A stretch of 64,000 bases of DNA from the NCBI GenBank assembly GCA_963556145.1, contig OY744465.1, positions 2,294,001 through 2,358,000 on the forward strand. Direction: 5' to 3'. Shown one piece after another: positions 5,801 to 23,570 of the stretch. Source of the stretch: Hygrocybe punicea (taxonomy: Eukaryota > Basidiomycota > Agaricomycetes > Agaricales > Hygrophoraceae). Positions within the stretch are counted from its first letter, which is position 1. Each line of letters opens with the position of its first letter. The position numbers and the translations under genes were made by a program. The notes beneath the pieces are model-generated. The model was given only the letters and a program-made list of their open reading frames with translations, searched no databases and was not told the origin of the DNA.

Positions 5801-7477
5801 TCAGGACGATAGTCACATGTGTGTATTCGGGACGTACCAGCTCCGGGTGAGCGTGAATTACTTGTGCGATGCTCTCGCGGGTAAATGTCTCTTCTCGGAA
5901 ACGGCGCTTGATGTCGTTCAGGACTTCTGCGTGTGCAGGGTTACTCTCGTCCAGTATGTTCTTCAGCTGCAGATACGCCGAGCCAAGGCGGTTGCAGAAG
6001 TGCTGCGCAAATATCCATCCGCAGTCTGAGGATATTATAAAAAATCAGGTTTAAGAGTATCTGCTGAGGAGATGAAAGTTGTGATAGATACGAACAAGCG
6101 TAGGTGGCTTCCTGCACAGCGTGCCCCACGGTACCAGGGGCAGCGAAGAAGAAAGGATTGTCTGGGAGACAGAACAGCAGGGACGCCTCCTTCATGACCT
6201 GATGGATGGAGTACTCGATTGGGGGGGCGTTGGAATGTGGTAGTGGGTTCAAATACAGGGAGATGATGGTGATTCCGTTTGAAAATTGTTCTGCGATAAA
6301 CGTCGATGAGTGAGTGAAGGAAGGAAACGGGAGGCAGAAAGACGGACCAACATATTTTCGTGCAGAGTAAAGCGAATAGTAATGATACAAGTTGGACAGA
6401 GCGCTGTGATGCCGATCTGATGGTCAATAGAAAGACGAGGAAGCATGACGGCAAACCAACCTGAAAAACCTGGAAGTTCCTCCCATCTTGTATCCAATGA
6501 CGAGCCTCTTCTCCCTAGTCCCTTCTACTTCAAAGAGGTTAATCACCGGCCCGAACCTGTCCTCGACGTTCCACATGATGCGCTGGTAAATATCGAGCGT
6601 GTTGATGCTGGCCTTTTCTAGGAAGGCATGATCCGAAACGGAACGAATGTCGGTCCTGCCATCGATTGTCTTGGGTGGAGCATCGGGGAAAGTACATTTT
6701 GTGACGAAGTAACAACGAAGTTGTTGCACTGAGAGAGCGGATATGGCGCCAGAGGAACGATAAGTTTCAAGGCGATATGCTCGTTCGGGTGTAGAGTTGT
6801 CCAAGTAATCGGCATCGATCCTAAGAGAAAGATGAATGAATGGGAGAGATATGAAAAGGAGAGAGAGGCGATTTTCACCTAGATTCACATCTAGCGCCCG
6901 GACCTTCAGTGCTGTTGAGACCTGGAGCGCTGGTGTGAATGAAGGTTGCGCCGTTCCCGTTCTCGTCTATCTTCTCGAGATCGATTACGAGTTTTGTGGG
7001 ATCATGCTTTGTGTAGGCGAGGACCTTTGCGCCGAAAAGGGCAATAACGTGATCGGAAATGACCTCGCGAGATTCATTCCTGAAGTAGGTGTCGTCGATT
7101 CCGAGATGAGAGTAGAACCAGTTGACCTCGTTGGACACTAGCTCGCGAGGTACGAATCCCTTGTGTGAAGACGGTTAGCTGTTGCTGCTGCAACGGAATT
7201 CGATAGACGAAACCTTTGCTGCAACTTGGGCTTCGACAAGGGCGCGCTGTTCAGCCTTTCCCTTGAACTCTGGGGTGTGGTAGCCGGGGAGGTTCTTTAT
7301 GCGATGGAGGGAAGTCTCGCTTGAGTTCTGCAGGGAAACGAGGACGGGTTTATGTGATTGTGGACCGGGATGGGCTGTGGAGTGGCCGTTTATGTGGGGG
7401 GCGTCGTGCACGGGCATGGGCTGGGGAACGGGCATGTATGATATGGTAGATGGGTCAGCACTGCAGTTGAGTATCAT
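2846..7477 (-). CDS. GDH2: NAD-specific glutamate dehydrogenase (large fungal type)
   Basis: Catalyses NAD-dependent oxidative deamination of glutamate to 2-oxoglutarate and ammonium, linking nitrogen and carbon catabolism. Starts at ATG 7477 and is split by many short introns. Family blocks in order: NLPGYHTPEFKGK, SNEVNWFYSHLGID, VEGTREKRLVIGYK, LYSARKYV, RDVARGGIRIVMSG, DIPENGAKGTI (active-site Gly/Lys region, near 4920-4960), GASPRLCFEKYVDAIIDLL, GTADMMDWA, GGVPHDRYGMTS, VIDGSGVLADPAGI and KYIVEGANLFFTQ. A short last exon (about 2846-2910) encodes IYKYGVNSSSVDFFHFARD and is easy to miss, because the penultimate exon reads on to a nearby stop. The set of blocks matches the roughly 1000-residue fungal enzyme. 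It is convergent with the P450 and followed upstream by a long promoter region. Confidence 0.93.
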
Positions 7478-13745: not shown

Positions 13746-16457
13746 ATGGCGCAGTCGTACCATCACCCGTCAAGATCAGCATTGACGTCGCCCGTCAAGG
13801 ATTCTGCTCTCACAATACTCAATCGTGACAAACACCTCAAGGTCGACGACGTACAGGATGCATATGTCGACCAGAAGGACCGGTGCGTCGACTCCATCCC
13901 CTCTCTCGTTGCCCGTTGACCAATGCACCCGTAACTTAGCCTAGTGAAAGCTATCGACACCACAAAATCTATCCTTTCTGACCTCCATGACTTCAGCAAA
14001 GACGAGTGGGTCATTCGGTATCCCCAACTACGCCAGGATACCGAGACCCAAGAAGATACAACAATCCATAAACCCCCCACCGCTGGACTGAAACGATCAC
14101 TCTCCTTTGCAGATGATCCTACTTCAGAAAGAGAGGTCATCTTAACCGCCGCCAGGCGGGGACTCACACGTTCCGTAACCCTCGCATCGATACCTGATGT
14201 CCAGAATACTCAAACGGAGGAACAGGACAAACCCGACTCCGAACTCTCTCATGTCACCCTCCGTCCTACCGCGGGCTTCCATGTTCTCCGTCTCGACCTG
14301 AAACTTGGCGCACATGGTTCGTCCACCTCGTCCACTTCCCTAGTCTCTCAGCTCGAAAAGTCTTCTATCGCCAACTTGCTCGGTGAACGGATCGTGTCTT
14401 CAATCAACCACATCGAAAAGCTCCGCCTACGCGTGGAAGATACATCTTCCAAAGTTCTCGTCACTGGCGACTTGAACGCTGGCAAATCGACTTTCGTCAA
14501 CGCATTGCTTCGGAGAGAGGTAATGCCTGTTGACCAGCAGCCATGCACGACAGTCTTCTGCGAGGTCCACGATGCAACAGAGAACGCTGGCAAGGAGGAG
14601 GTGCATGTGTTGATGGACTCCGTGTCGTATGACATCATGGATGAATCGACCTTTACCAGAAAAAACATTGCAGATTTGGAACACATTGTAGCGGACACCG
14701 AGAGTTCGCAGCAGAAGCTCAGACTATACCTCGCAGACACCCGCTCCCCGTCCGAATCGCTCCTCAACAACGGCGTTGTCGATATTTCACTCATCGATGC
14801 CCCCGGTCTCAACCGGGACAGCCTCAAAACCACCGCCGTCTTCGCCCGCCAGGAAGAAATCGATGTTGTCGTCTTCGTCGTTTCTGCCGAGAATCACTTC
14901 ACCCTTTCAGCCAAGGAATTCCTCGCCAACGCCAGCAACGAAAAAGCATACCTTTTCATCGTCGTCAACAAGTTCGACCAGATCAAAAACAAAGATAAGT
15001 GCAGGCGACTCGTATTGGAGCAGATCAAGGAACTGAGCCCGGCGACGTACGAGGACGCAGCTGATTTGGTCCACTTTGTGGACTCGGCCTCCGCTCTGCA
15101 GCCATTCACTCCAAACCCCTCCTTTGACGACCTCGAGTCGTCGTTGCGCTCGTTCGTGCTTGTCAAGCGCTCGAAATCGAAACTGCAACCTGTTTCGACT
15201 TACTTGTCCAACCTGCTCGCCGATGTTGACTTCCTTGCCAGTGCGAACGCGCTTATGGCTGATTCGGAGCTGGAATGTGCCGTAGAGGATCTGAAGCGGG
15301 CACGCCCGGTTCTGGAGAAGATGAAAAGCGAGCGGGAGGCCTTGGATGAACGGTTGGAGGCTGTTGAGGAGGAGGGTGCTTGCATAGCTAGCACTAAAAC
15401 CAAAACCACCTTGAATGACGCCCTCGATCGTGTTGGCCAAGGCAAGCTTGGAATCGACACTGGCAATGTTAGCATGCCGACTTATCCAGGGCTTCTCGGC
15501 ATATGGGACTACGTCCGGCAGGTCAGGAAAGCCTTACTCCTCAGCTTAGATCTGGCTGTCAACTTGGCGGAGGACGAGAGCCGAGTGGTTACCAGTGATG
15601 GAGTGGCCAAGATCGCGCGGCTCGGCGACGAGTTCTTGCCAGAGGGGGTTGAGAGAAGTAAGAGAGTATTCATGCCGGAGGCGATGTTCTCCGCAAGGGC
15701 GTGGAAGAAGGGAGGCAAATCGAAGAACCGACGATTGTCGAATGTGTCTTCGGTAATGGGCGGGGCGATTGTAGCGGGAGGTGTACACGGGCTTGGCATC
15801 GGGTTGGCGCAGAGGCCAGATATGCTGGAGACGACCTTCTTTGACTTGTTTGACCTGCACCACCAGTTTTGGGTGCATTTCGGCGAGGGGAAGCGTGAGG
15901 GCAAAGACGACAGTCTCGAAGACGAGGATTCGACCCCGAGTGCGTTGAGCCTCATCAGCGTCGGAGTGGGCGCCTTGTCGATGGTAGGTGGGCAGGCCAT
16001 TGGCGCTCGCGCGCTGATCGAGGGAATCATCCGGGTGACGGATTTCTTCAGCAATGAGACGGCGAGGAAGTGGGCTGCGCCAGTTATCGGGGCGATCACC
16101 ATCGGGCTCACTGCTTACCTGGTTTTGGAACTCCCGAGTACGATCCCGCGGACGGTTGGCCGGAGGATTCGTGGTTCGTTGGTGAAGCATCGTGGTCATG
16201 GTCGTGGTCGTGAGGACGGGGACGAGCTGTTGTATGTGAATGTGCATGCGGGGAGGATTAGCAGGGAGACGCGGAAGGTGTTGAGATTGGCGTCGTGGGA
16301 TTTGAGGGAGCGGTTTAAGGGGGCGATGGAAGAGAGGGGGAAGGAGGTGAAGGGTGCGGAGGAGATGGAGAGACGGGCGAGACGGGCGAAGGAGCGATTT
16401 GAGGAGGTTGGGAGGCGGAGTGTGGCTGTACGTGCCGATGCTGAGTTGGGGCCGTGA
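13746..16457 (+). CDS. FZO1: Mitofusin, outer-membrane dynamin-like GTPase
   Basis: Drives mitochondrial outer-membrane fusion. ATG at 13746 (MAQSYHHPSR). One intron at 13883-13939 (57 nt) joins DQKDR to LVKAIDTTKS in frame, giving 884 residues. GTPase motifs: G1 GDLNAGKS, G2 Thr in QQPCTTVFCEV, G3 DAPG in IDAPGLNRDS, G4 NKFD. A central coiled-coil region follows (LEKMKSEREALDERLEAVEE). Two hydrophobic stretches near the C terminus (ALSLISVGVGALSMVGG and VIGAITIGLTAYLVLELP) form the paired membrane anchor typical of Fzo1. A second heptad region ends the protein. Length and domain order agree with fungal Fzo1. Confidence 0.94.
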
Positions 16458-18322: not shown

Positions 18323-21300
18323 TCAAGAATGAATGGAAAGGCATGGATGATTTGAGTCATTTGACTGGGCTAGGTTTCTAACATGCCAGTATATATTAGC
18401 CAGTAATATCGACCATAAGAATAGAATTACACTTGTAATAAGTTCCAAACAAATTTGGAGAAGGTCTTTCCCGATATATTCCTCGTTTGCTTGTCTTGAT
18501 CTAGTTTCCACACCAGAACGGTGTGAAAATGCTGAAACCACTTTATTGGTGACAGATGCAAGCCTGTCACTGTGTTGAAACCGGTTGCAAGCTGTCTGAA
18601 CCGCTTGAACAGTGCCTTCTTGTTTGACTAGATGAAATGAATCATGGGCCACAATAACCACAGCTAAAACAAGATTAGACAGAAGATATACACAGTGATC
18701 ACAAAACTACACCATACTTGCAATATAGGCCAATATATCCAGTCCACGGACTATGTTTGACTGAAAAGTGTTTATCAAGTTGAGACATTGGGATAAATGA
18801 TGAAAACTCACTGAAGGCCACAACTTTGTTAAGATAGGACAGATCTGTAGTATTAGTGGAATGGGAGGGAAGGTTGGAAAAATAAACATTTAAAGCAATT
18901 GAACTTACAAGCTATACCAAAATAGGGTCAGAGTAAATGATCAACAGAGCTAAAGCAGTTGTGCTTACAAGCTGTACCAAAAATTTCAGTGAGGAAAGGT
19001 AGTTATAGCCATGATTTACTGACATCCTAGCATGACATCCAAATCCCATATCAATCAGAAGAGACATGGAATGCCATTGACATGCAATACCCACAACCTA
19101 CAGGCAATCACAGTGCTGTCACAAATGCTAATTCAAATGATATTAGGAAATGGACTCACTTTCTATAGTTTTCAGTTAGAATAATGTGAATCAGCCAGGA
19201 AACACCAAGTTCAAAGACATACATCCTGTTTTAATACAAATTTTGATTAGGAAAAATAGTTTCAGAACTAGGAACAGATGCATACAAACTTTAGTCACAA
19301 CCATGTCAATATCAGTCAATAATAATGAAATGAAATTCAGTGCTTACATTCTACAATTGGTCACAGTCAGGTCAAACACCCATCTAAGCAAATCACATAC
19401 GTACATCCTAGATTTATCAGATGGAGGAATATATATGAGTGAAAATCCAAATACTCTGAAACTCACTCTCTGCAATCATTCATCAGAGAATGAGTAGGAT
19501 TTAATTAAGTATGCACATCCAAGAAGAGCAACTCACATGCTATAGGCATTCACACCAGCATTAATAAGACAAATGCTAAGGAAGCAGAGACTCACTAGCT
19601 GAAATCATTTATTGGAACAATATTAATAAGCCAAGAATGTTGAGAGTTGGTATACATACAGTCTACAGATATTTGGGGCCAAATAAATAAAATATAATTG
19701 AAAGAAGTAAAACTCTTACTGGCTATAATTGTGCACCACAAACACAACATGCATTATTAAGAGGAAGGAGCTATTCTGTTAGAAAGTCATGTACTCACGT
19801 TCTATGGTCACAGTCAAGTGAAATCAATCAGAAGAGTAGAAAATCTTGAGTAGGAAATAATATACTTACAATCTATTGTCATTTATCAGCCAAACAAATT
19901 AGTGAGAAGAAATCACAGAAGAAAAATCACAGACTTGTTGCTATGAGTGTAGAACATTGGAATTAGCAAGAAACTGGCACATTAAAAGTCATAATACTTA
20001 CATGCTGCAGTTAATACAGCAATTCACCAGCTTCAGTCAGAAACAACACAGAGTAGCAGTGGAGATACTTACATTCATATACTATAATGAGACAGTCAGA
20101 GTAGGTTATTGTTGGGAAGACAACACAAGAATGAATATCCTCACTCGCTACAACAAATCAATAAGAAGCCACACATTTACCAATTAAGATACTCACATAC
20201 TACGAGCATTTAAAACTAGATGAATTGTATTTTGATATTGAAGAAGTCAGACACTCACTCGCTGCCATCATTGGATCAGCTAGTGGCATGAACATTCATA
20301 TGTTAAAATCCTCACATGCTATTATCAACCCCAAACCCAACATTAGTAGGCTTGTCAAGTCATGCACTTGAGAAGCTTACATACTAAAAAAAATCCAAAA
20401 AAAAAATCAGATTAAATCACTTTGAATGCCAAGCTCTGGTACTTACTTTCTATATTCAACATAAAATGGAAAGATAAATAAAACACTTTGTAAACTCAGA
20501 AATCAAATGCCTCACATCCTATAGTCCACAAAAAATGTTGGTTCAAACATTTATCAAAGTCAGATGACCAGTAAACACACTCACATACTGTTGAGGTTCA
20601 TGTGCAGTCAGAAATATTGTGGTGAAATGAATGAGTTTCCAACACCCAGTTGAAACACTCACATACTACATTCATTCAATCAGAAATGTGTCAGAATGAA
20701 GGTGCTGGTAACCCATGAATTAAAACGCTCACATCCTATTGCCAACCATGTCCAGAAGAAAATCAGCTAGAATAAATAAACTGATATACACACAAAGATA
20801 CTGACATTCTATAGTCATTACCACAACTGTCAGTTAGGGGGAATGCAGTTCCTAGAAACAGTATCCACAAACCTGCTATAATAACCAATAACCAATACAT
20901 TCAGCTGAAATCTGTTGGCAAAGTGTCAATATACTTACATTCTATAGGGGTAGGATCACCATGTAAGAAAGCTGCAAACACATGGATAAAACCCTTACCT
21001 TCTACAATCATTTATCACCATACATCAGTTTAAAACAGTTTTTAAATGTAAAATCTCACATACTGTACCAGTGAATCAGTGAGTCCAAGAAATATAACAA
21101 TGATGAATATAAAATACCCACTCGCTACAAATGTTCACCTCCTTAAATCAATCTGAAGCAATGAAGGCTTCCCAATACTCACATACTGTGGAGATCAATC
21201 AGAAGACATGCATTACAATACCAGTCATTGAATACTCACAAGCTGCATTGATTCAACCAAATGCATACTGGTCAGAAGAAATCCTTGTCATATTCATAAA

Positions 21301-23570
21301 CAACCATATTCACTTCCTACAAGCAGGAAAACAAGACCATTTAGAATGAAAACAAATCCAAAGAGCAAAGTACTCACATACTATGGCAGGTTCAAAGCCA
21401 AATCAAACTTCAGTTGCAAGCAAACACTCTAAAGACTCACAGCCTATTGTTAGTCACAAAAGATTAATCAGCTGAAACAGTTCAATATGCTAAAACATGA
21501 ACTAATCACATTCTAAGCGAGGAAAATATCAGTTGCAACCTCCAACCATAAGCAAGAAAGACATTTACCTCCTGCATCACGTTAAAACAAATTTTTAGAT
21601 CAGAAAAAGTAAATGGGTCCAATAACAAAGAAATTTACAAACTACAAACAGATAAATCATTAGTTGAAAGAATCTCAGCATTGTTTTGCTTACTTTCTAC
21701 AATCAACCAAATTATCAGCCAAGTTGAAGTGGTTTACACATGCAGAAGTTGCCCACCTCCTGTGGTCATTCACAGCCAGAATGTTAATCAGCAGTAGTTG
21801 ATATGTTATGGGGGTTTATATCCTCACATCCTATCAATGTCACAAATGTTAATTGAGATAGACCTACTGTTTAACAAACTCACTTTCTGCAGTTGTCATA
21901 GCCATATAAGCATTAGTCAATGGAAAGGATTATCACAAGCTCAGGAGCTTACCTCCTATGATGATTTATTACAAGAATTGAGGAGCAGCTGGAATACCTG
22001 GAAGGTGAAAATACTCACATCCTTTGAACATTTTTTGCGAACATGTCAACTAGAAATTTGTTTACCGAAAAGTTGAAAAACTCACAAACTATAGATGGTT
22101 GCAATACATCTTGTGAGCAAACACAAACACAACACCTTGAACTCACAAACTAATGTGATATACACGTCACCATGATTGTTAGTAATCCGATGGAGTCATA
22201 TTGCTCACCAGCTGCCATCATTATGTCAGATTTACATCATGAATTCACGGTTGAACACTTACCCTGAGATGGGCAAACCACGATGAAATATTGGTTGCAA
22301 CTCTGAAAGTAACAGCAGGTACATTTGAATAGAAGTCTACCAAGAATATCAGCATCGTTGATAATTGTTCAAGTACCTTTATCAATTACACCTACGTCTT
22401 GATATTGCGTCTCTATGGTTCAATATCAGTGAAAATCTTACAATATAACACGATTGTTCCTCACATGATTGCGAATTCCATACAGAGCTGGATATGGTTC
22501 GTTTGTGCCGAAATGAACAGTTTTCGGAGCACATCATTATTTAATGCATCCACCGTCTTCTTGATCAATAAGCTGCACTCAGCCTCAGGCGTATGCATGT
22601 CTACATCCAAGTCACAATAAATTGTCAATTGATGCATAGGAGACTTGCCTTCGAGAAAGAGATAGTCTGCTGGAGGATGAGGAGCCTTCTTGATCATAGG
22701 GAGGTAATGTTGCCCAAAGCTTTCCGCCGCGTATCCAGGAGCCTCTTGACGTGCTTCTGGTATATTCTTTCCCTGACGTCGGAGCATTCCGTAGGCCTTG
22801 ACAATTTGGCCGTCCCATTTGGTAAAGAGACCAATGACAGGAACTGCGTATGAATCAATCTAGTGATACCACGGAAGACAAACCAACAGTCACTCACCAT
22901 TACCGGTTCCACGTTCAAAAAACTTGAGCTCTTCAGGAGATAATACTCTGTCGTCGCCAGCAGGAAGGCAATACCTTGAATAAAATTAATTCAAATATCT
23001 CCCTGTCAACAGTACAACATACCAAATCGCATGTAACTGCTGCTCCAAATGCTGTTCGCTTGACCGAATATCAATGAAAGCGCGTACTTTCCCAATCTCA
23101 CTGGCGGATCCGGCTTCAAACCCCATCGAGTCATGAAACACAAAATCGGGGCTGTCGGGAAATGTGATCTCATGCTCGATTTCGTGCCTGCCCCGCTGTA
23201 TCACGAATGCAAATGTTTTAAATAAGAATAAATTGATTCTTATGCGCATACCATGTTGCTGGGAGCGTCTAGGATAGCGGAATCGATCTGACCAAAATCG
23301 GCCGATGTCATTAGTGAAGTTAGTTTCTAGCACGCACGTTTGGGAAAAGGGACATACCTCTGTGCCGTGTTGACGGACAATAATGGGTTTATCCGTTGTT
23401 CTGCACATTTTCTGGAGAATGGTAGTCTTGCCGGAATTCGCTTTGCCCATGATAAGAACCCGGAAGCGAGGGCAAACCTTTCGAATTCTGATGACCTCGA
23501 GATCGTCCCAGACGTGTTGGGAGCTCTCAGCGGCGCTCCCGATTTCTGAAACATCTGAAGTTTCGGGCAT
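18323..23570 (-). CDS. P-loop GTPase with 63 exons, 52 of them micro-exons
   Basis: Fungal small-GTPase-like protein with a C-terminal membrane region; biological role unknown. ATG at 23570. Exons: 23358-23570, 23252-23287, 23023-23195, 22898-22974, 22649-22843, 22465-22600, 22396-22412, 22263-22336, then 52 micro-exons (22211 down to 18909), 18812-18844, 18718-18760 and 18323-18663. They sum to 1500 nt: 499 residues plus stop. G1 is GKANSGKT, G3 is in FVFHDSMGFEAG, and the G4-like motif TKWD is in VIGLFTKWDG. The intron at 22601-22648 is GC-AG, and removing it restores FLEDMHTPEAE. The C-terminal exon holds a likely membrane helix (LELITSVILFLWSILLANIY). The frame is continuous through every junction, which argues for a functional gene. 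I infer the family from its match to the P-loop GTPases common in mushrooms; the array itself I do not know from any family. Confidence 0.85.
18845..22262 (-). repeat. One-codon-per-exon array: 52 micro-exons, 53 introns
   Basis: On the minus strand the motif AG-NNN-GT recurs at even spacing, with introns of 49-76 nt. Lowest plus-strand base of each 3-nt exon and its residue: 22209 L; 22147 F; 22086 F; 22019 D; 21953 E; 21884 K; 21828 D; 21757 E; 21694 K; 21639 F; 21569 E; 21510 N; 21441 A; 21378 Y; 21314 E; 21240 L; 21183 Y; 21122 R; 21060 Y; 20999 K; 20939 N; 20873 Q; 20806 N; 20733 D; 20663 Y; 20585 Y; 20516 D; 20447 K; 20381 Y; 20316 H; 20259 R; 20197 Y; 20145 R; 20073 (9 nt, Y-M-N); 20002 H; 19931 S; 19870 I; 19799 N; 19720 P; 19660 T; 19596 L; 19537 H; 19467 R; 19405 D; 19348 N; 19286 F; 19223 D; 19160 K; 19095 V; 19024 D; 18969 L; 18909 L. 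Donors are mostly GTGAGT, GTAAGT or GTATGT. Branch-like TTCTGAY or CTAAY lies 10-30 nt before the acceptor in those inspected. Weakest calls: 20873 (donor GTTTGT), 20806 and 19024 (GTCAGT), 19931 (acceptor AAG). Confidence 0.85.

Follow-up and report, generated by a model that had tools for sequence, protein, structure and literature searches.

A P-loop GTPase gene on the minus strand of a 64,000-nt stretch of Hygrocybe punicea DNA (contig OY744465.1, positions 2,294,001 to 2,358,000; hereafter the window) quite probably builds the loop between the GTP-binding core and the helical C-terminal part of its product from 52 predicted micro-exons, nearly all of a single codon and likely all spliced in phase 0. 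The array is one of at least five in the genome, and in the same reading the repeated units duplicate while their codons diversify.

Structure of the Micro-Exon Array

The array (18909..22211, minus strand) comprises 51 exons of 3 nt and one of 9 nt, which together encode LFFDEKDEKFENAYELYRYKNQNDYYDKYHRYRYMNHSINPTLHRDNFDKVDLL; the lone nine-base exon lies at 20073..20081 (minus strand; TATATGAAT, YMN). These numbers of units had been proposed in a first-pass annotation made from the letters of the window, and reading the acceptors and donors on the minus strand returned the same. The exons total 162 nt, that is 54 codons in phase 0, and the claim that all 54 are sense codons was confirmed (0/54 stops). 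The micro-exons are separated from one another and from the flanking exons by 53 introns of 49-76 nt, for which a mean of about 61 nt had been given and 61.4 nt was recomputed from the coordinates. One site (19931..19940, minus strand) can be parsed in two ways, either as TCT (19933-19931, before GTGATT) or as CAACAA (19940-19935, before GTCTGT); the latter choice is equally in frame and would raise the array to 55 codons.

The gene model consists of eight ordinary exons, the array and three further ordinary exons, amounting to 1500 nt and 499 amino acids with phase 0 at the array. Both the sum of 1500 nt and the phase 0 at the array borders, of the exon ending in WFAHLR on one side and the exon encoding ICPILTKLWPS on the other, held as earlier described, and, with splice signals and frame in agreement on both sides, the sequence is still best read as a P-loop GTPase gene that contains consecutive one-codon exons.

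The window array is not a product of chance. When introns of 44-85 nt were allowed, the longest chain of AG-NNN-GT units on the minus strand of 18820-22300 had 33 units, and a second chain of 18 units was split off by the nine-base unit. The longest chain in 300 dinucleotide-preserving shuffles had 4 units (reached five times), and the longest on the plus strand of the window had 2. A CTRAY branch point was present in 33 of the 51 array introns, as compared with a mean of 7.1 and a maximum of 14 in 200 shuffles.

Further Arrays in the Genome

The window array is referred to as C7 and the other arrays by their contig (C34, C6, C36 and C35). A pattern search of the 92.2-Mb genome gave 62 matches, as against 18 in a reversed control, and yielded the C6 and C34 arrays; chain matches at L003-L006 were GTGAGT simple repeats and were discarded. 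A protein search for NACHT gave 90 matches in the genome, in itself a large NLR set. Thirty of them were extracted together with 1.5 kb of flanking sequence per side, and three of these 30 loci (C6, C36 and C35) carry or adjoin arrays. With 30 of the 90 NACHT matches examined, the array count is a minimum. At least four arrays besides that of the window were identified in this way: one in a GTPase paralogue (C34), two in NACHT/NLR genes (C6 and C36) and one shortly before a third NACHT frame (C35). The scored parses, after edits at the edges, contained 52 exons in C7, 49 in C34, 38 in C6, 26 in C36 and 18 in C35. The C34 gene is a paralogue of the window GTPase gene (52% over one exon), and the C6 gene has a NACHT domain (E-value 7.6e-13). 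Both in C6 and in C36 the array is located near the C-terminal end of the NACHT gene; in C35 (L055 189-1450) it immediately precedes a NACHT frame of the same orientation and could be N-terminal. A genome search with the P0057-type GTPase found no further gene.

Several other observations were made at these loci. The first codons at the 5' ends of the arrays are alike in C7 (FFDEK) and C34 (SFDK), and C6 and C36 share GAT-TGG; the edges of the arrays may be older than their centers. At about position 6203 of L009 (C6) an AG is followed directly by a GT, possibly a zero-length exon, and a gap of 110 nt lies at 6320-6433; a step may have been missed here or may be recursive. Read on the opposite strand, the C6 array has long open frames, which were taken as a product of the 71-bp periodicity and rejected. 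Near the C34 array gene, on the opposite strand, there is a second GTPase match containing TGA (C34:6458866-6459051, minus strand), and downstream of the C34 gene a long inverted repeat was noticed by eye (L010 8400-8760), perhaps a small transposon.

Coding Behavior of the Triplets

The array triplets likely behave like codons. No stop was found among the 186 triplets counted over the five arrays, whereas the base composition at each of the three positions predicts approximately 9.6-9.95. Permutations free of stops numbered 0 of 20000 for the five arrays, 512 of 20000 for C7 alone and 212 of 20000 when only distinct codon types were used. Triplets starting with TA had T as third base in 16/16 cases, and those starting with [ACG]A had a purine there in 24/68 (Fisher p 0.004). 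The other two frames of the window array contain stops at 1/53 and 15/53, and a stop-rich offset frame recurs in C34 (12/49). Because one offset frame is stop-poor as well, the stop argument was based on the permutation test and not on a comparison of frames.

Before the stop count C6 was trimmed at its 5' edge, by TGA and GTTCTTGAG, and C36 at its 3' edge, by GCTGATCAT. At the C6 edge the ordinary exon border reads TCGAAA-GTGAGT, and the TGA was linked only via a penalized gap of 104 nt; keeping it would give one stop. For C7 the count used TCT in place of CAACAA, and for C36, where an unscored first parse offered TAATTG, the scored parse takes TAT.

Diversity of Codons and Introns

The diversity of codons and introns was compared using only units with introns of exactly 68 nt inside similar stretches (20 in C34, 18 in C6 and 9 in C36). 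The pairwise diversity (pi) at the three codon sites was.57/.69/.52 in C34, against a mean of.029 over the 68 intron sites;.78/.74/.29 (mean 0.60) in C6, against.061 in the intron; and.56/.72/.22 (mean 0.50) in C36, against.088. In these young units the codon sites are approximately 6- to 20-fold more divergent than the introns, and pairs with identical introns carried different codons in 18/23 cases in C34, 3/3 in C6 and 0/1 in C36. The third base was A in 16 of 21 young units of C6 and in 4 of 17 units in the remainder of that array (p 0.003). The young introns of C34 and C6, the two arrays covered by the searches, had no match outside their own locus in 92 Mb, very common words being skipped by the search. 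Intron transposition was set aside because no intron sequence common to different loci was found. To judge from these sequences, the data fit a tandem duplication of codon-plus-intron units combined with selection for codon change, and they speak against intron transposition.

Adjacent introns of the window array are 31-68% similar. By this measure the window array is the old, diverged form, and C34, C6 and C36 are the young, active form. Parsimony worked out by hand on the codon sets was not used, since third-position changes were too rare in it to decide the matter.

Homologous Proteins and Evidence for the Product

With the window protein as query, 87 of 7999 scored candidates matched, the nearest from Tulasnella sp. 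419 and then from Jaapia; the named homologues we take to be Agaricomycetes. Three homologues run on without a break past the border motif W-F-P-H: P0030 with a linker of 62 amino acids, P0056 with one of 32 and P0016 with one of 15, each followed by a hydrophobic helix that can be aligned to the part of the window protein downstream of the array (17-25% identity); the helix encoded by the exon at 18718..18760 aligns, with low identity, with GATIVIVAGGTFW of P0030 and its relatives. Structure was examined in the AlphaFold model of the homologue P0024, in place of the window protein. This model has a mean predicted local distance difference test score (pLDDT) of 82.7, its border lies at 299-303, and 306-327 is the sole listed segment with a pLDDT under 50. 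Given the variable linker of the homologues and the low-pLDDT segment of P0024, the window array likely sits in a loop.

Several homologues bear indirectly on whether the triplets reach the protein. The border followed by V[RSC] was found in 22 of 196 homologues, of which 17 end no more than 20 residues beyond it (judged by eye, with a pattern that itself selects V[RSC]), as expected if a splice donor is read through. P0041, from a 1051-base Joint Genome Institute (JGI) contig, is identical to the C34 model at 65/84 positions just before the array and continues FPHML-PSFD, while C34 has FPHML followed by the exons CCC, AGC, TTT and GAT, its first four one-codon exons. Shuffled orders of the C34 array began with PSFD in 3 of 200000 cases, and among 56 other border matches examined none shared three or more of the PSFD residues. 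Array-like tails with 56-62% Y/H/Q/N/K/D/E follow FLPFWN in P0057, P0059 and P0208, the bodies of which agree at 249/298, 246/286 and 240/287 residues and the tails at 13/33, 7/17 and 5/22. Four of seven Russula gene models with FLPFWN read VSC or VSY at this place, as from a GT.AG donor.

Some of the evidence weighs against the interpretation given above and is collected here. Splicing of the arrays in H. punicea is a prediction from genomic sequence and homologous proteins, and P0041, P0057, P0059 and P0208, all proteins from JGI contigs, would be cDNA products to judge from their continuing across intron positions. P0041 shares no more than four residues with the array and its remaining tail diverges, which we read as a retained intron. 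The JGI protein P0209 adds only Y and D after FWNLI before it turns into intron-like sequence, as though array splicing had halted after two one-codon exons, and the Russula models P0053, P0054 and P0214 have the motif and read neither VSC nor VSY. One offset frame is nearly as free of stops as the coding frame, not only in C7 (1/53) but also in C34 (1/49) and C36 (0/25). Within the genome, no array was seen in the GTPase paralogue at C7:2386445, the C6 chain is interrupted by stretches of 124 and 110 nt with a possible missing exon, and the C35 array may belong to a gene different from the downstream NACHT frame. The third-position conservation of C6 is absent in C34 (pi.52) and non-significant in C36 (p 0.39). 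Finally, since the window array has no homogenized units, the account of diversification rests on C34, C6 and C36.

Proposed Mechanism, Function and Alternative Explanations

Under the proposed mechanism a unit of one codon and one intron would duplicate in tandem. As recent copies the introns would remain similar, and they would serve as recombination frames, while diversifying selection would alter the single codon between them. Immune-type proteins could in this way change by single residues, and the loop or tail so encoded would form a variable recognition surface of an innate-immune protein involved in non-self recognition. Skipping any micro-exon keeps the frame because all are whole codons in phase 0, so that alternative splicing of the window micro-exons could add variants. 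NACHT proteins represent the NLRs of fungi (PMC4986451). In a Foldseek search with the P0024 model the best-ranked PDB matches included the immunity-related GTPases Irga6, Irgb6 and Irgb10, with query template modeling (TM) scores of 0.32-0.43 at approximately 10% identity; the chain matches to these proteins had a root-mean-square deviation above 9 Å and a bacterial dynamin-like protein ranked second, which weighs against the immune role. From the NLR nature of the NACHT proteins and, weakly, from these structural matches, a variable recognition loop or tail appears to be the likeliest use of the array. Whether immune-type basidiomycete GTPases and NLRs in general swap and duplicate codon-plus-intron units, with the introns as recombination frame and each unit contributing a single selected residue to a hypervariable recognition loop, is in our estimate evenly balanced.

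The strongest competing view is that the exons are real and serve combinatorial skipping, as in truffle genes, with the differences between codons being incidental. It accords with exons that are multiples of three in phase 0, and the truffle precedent is described, in the text available, as alternative splicing; yet an excess of codon over intron divergence of approximately 6- to 20-fold in the young units is not expected of incidental drift, and we regard this view as possible and rather unlikely. Copying of one intron into the codon boundaries of a sequence that was already coding, by introners or reverse splicing, would explain different codons flanked by identical introns, but insertion in phase 0 every three bases would be unexpected, the young introns of C34 and C6 match one locus each in 92 Mb (common words skipped), and the young units of C6 share their third codon base, which points to a common descent of codon and intron. 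We consider it improbable.

Only marginally below it we place the possibility that the array is a single 3.4-kb intron removed recursively in steps of approximately 61 nt, so that the triplets never remain in the mRNA. A donor, an acceptor and mostly a branch signal are present at every step, and in C6 one step could be of zero length, AG-GT (L009, about 6203). Such a ratchet gives no reason for the exact three-base spacing, however, and it is at odds with the avoidance of stops by the triplets, with young codons that are far more variable than the introns, and with PSFD in array order in P0041. A decaying tandem repeat or pseudogene, in which splice-like repeats are left without a product, is the most improbable of all: the units do stand in tandem and some gene models elsewhere end at the border, but sense codons persist through five arrays, the GTPase and C-terminal exons of the window gene are intact and splice signals are kept in strongly diverged introns.

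Relation to Known Systems

The author of the first-pass annotation knew of no gene with so long a run of one-codon exons, but precedents of the kind exist. Microexons in the nank genes of the truffle Tuber melanosporum were reportedly first described by Iotti and colleagues in 2012. Arrays of 3-bp microexons are already on record for these genes, which encode NACHT-ANK proteins, as alternative splicing of codon-sized microexons (PMC4986451, PMC10197012, PMC9815663, PMC3689799, as far as the accessible text of these papers goes). Codon-sized microexon arrays are thus an already known kind. Judged against that text, the truffle genes and the arrays described here are alike in having dozens of codon-sized exons (52 in the window; 49, 38, 26 and 18 in the others), and C6 and C36 resemble them further as NACHT genes with the array near the C-terminal end and a presumed diversification of the recognition region. 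The window gene differs from them in being a GTPase without NACHT or ANK models and in having an agaricomycete rather than an ascomycete host. The ascomycete microexons are reported for their splicing, whereas here codons are diversified in the DNA between near-identical introns, the likeness of the truffle introns lying outside this comparison.

Fungal NLR repeats of high internal conservation comprise WD40 repeats of the HET-D/HET-R type as well as TPR and ANK repeats (PMC4986451 and PMC9815663, in their accessible parts). On this description they share near-identical units with few hypervariable positions with parts of C34, C6 and C36, though not with the window array, and they differ in that here the conserved frame is an intron and one codon per unit reaches the protein instead of a WD40, TPR or ANK unit. 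The introner elements mentioned above have dispersed copies, which were not found for the young C34 and C6 units (the two arrays searched), these matching their own locus only. The micro-exon genes (MEG) of Schistosoma have many symmetrical tiny exons of 6-36 nt, the skipping of which keeps the frame, and encode secreted proteins with a signal peptide. The arrays are like them in the numerous tiny symmetrical exons and the survival of the frame after skipping, and unlike them in that 51 of the 52 window exons have 3 nt and the gene is of GTPase or NLR type. Immunity-related GTPases may be similar in combining a G domain with helices, according to the weak match of the P0024 homologue model; to our knowledge no codon array occurs in them.

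No report of one-codon exon arrays in a basidiomycete or in a GTPase gene was found in the literature searched. New here are the GTPase genes as carriers, the basidiomycete host and the single codons diversified between homogenized introns. If the reading is true, fifty one-codon exons strung together and spliced in order would be a strong test of how the spliceosome handles exons below its own footprint, and a hypervariable receptor could have introns as its conserved framework. Such arrays may be overlooked by gene finders, and because 17 of the 22 homologue models with the border pattern stop early, databases may lack the variable part of some immune-type proteins of fungi.

Remaining Exons and Neighboring Features

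The GTPase part of the window gene (22263..23570, minus strand) consists of eight ordinary exons at 23570-23358, 23287-23252, 23195-23023, 22974-22898, 22843-22649, 22600-22465, 22412-22396 and 22336-22263, which have splice sites, are open in phase and end in SSWFAHLR; one intron of this part, with its first base at 22648, is of the GC-AG type (GCAAGT). After the array the minus strand continues with the exon encoding ICPILTKLWPS in phase 0 (18812..18844), an exon encoding SNIVRGLDILAYIA plus one base (18718..18760) and the last exon with the stop codon (18323..18663), which encodes a C-terminal part containing VVIVAHDSFHLV and ending in CLSIHS. Among Pfam models the window protein matched only GTPase models, weakly (MMR_HSR1 with an E-value of 9.4e-4 and 19.7 bits, below the cut-off of 21.9), and neither the NACHT nor the ANK model. 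An Rfam scan of the window gave nothing at the gathering score. On the plus strand, at 13944-16457, the window contains an uninterrupted frame of 837 amino acids for the mitofusin FZO1, the closest named match of which, among the best 120 of 2885, is from Collybia nuda (71%), with unnamed ones at 74 and 81%.

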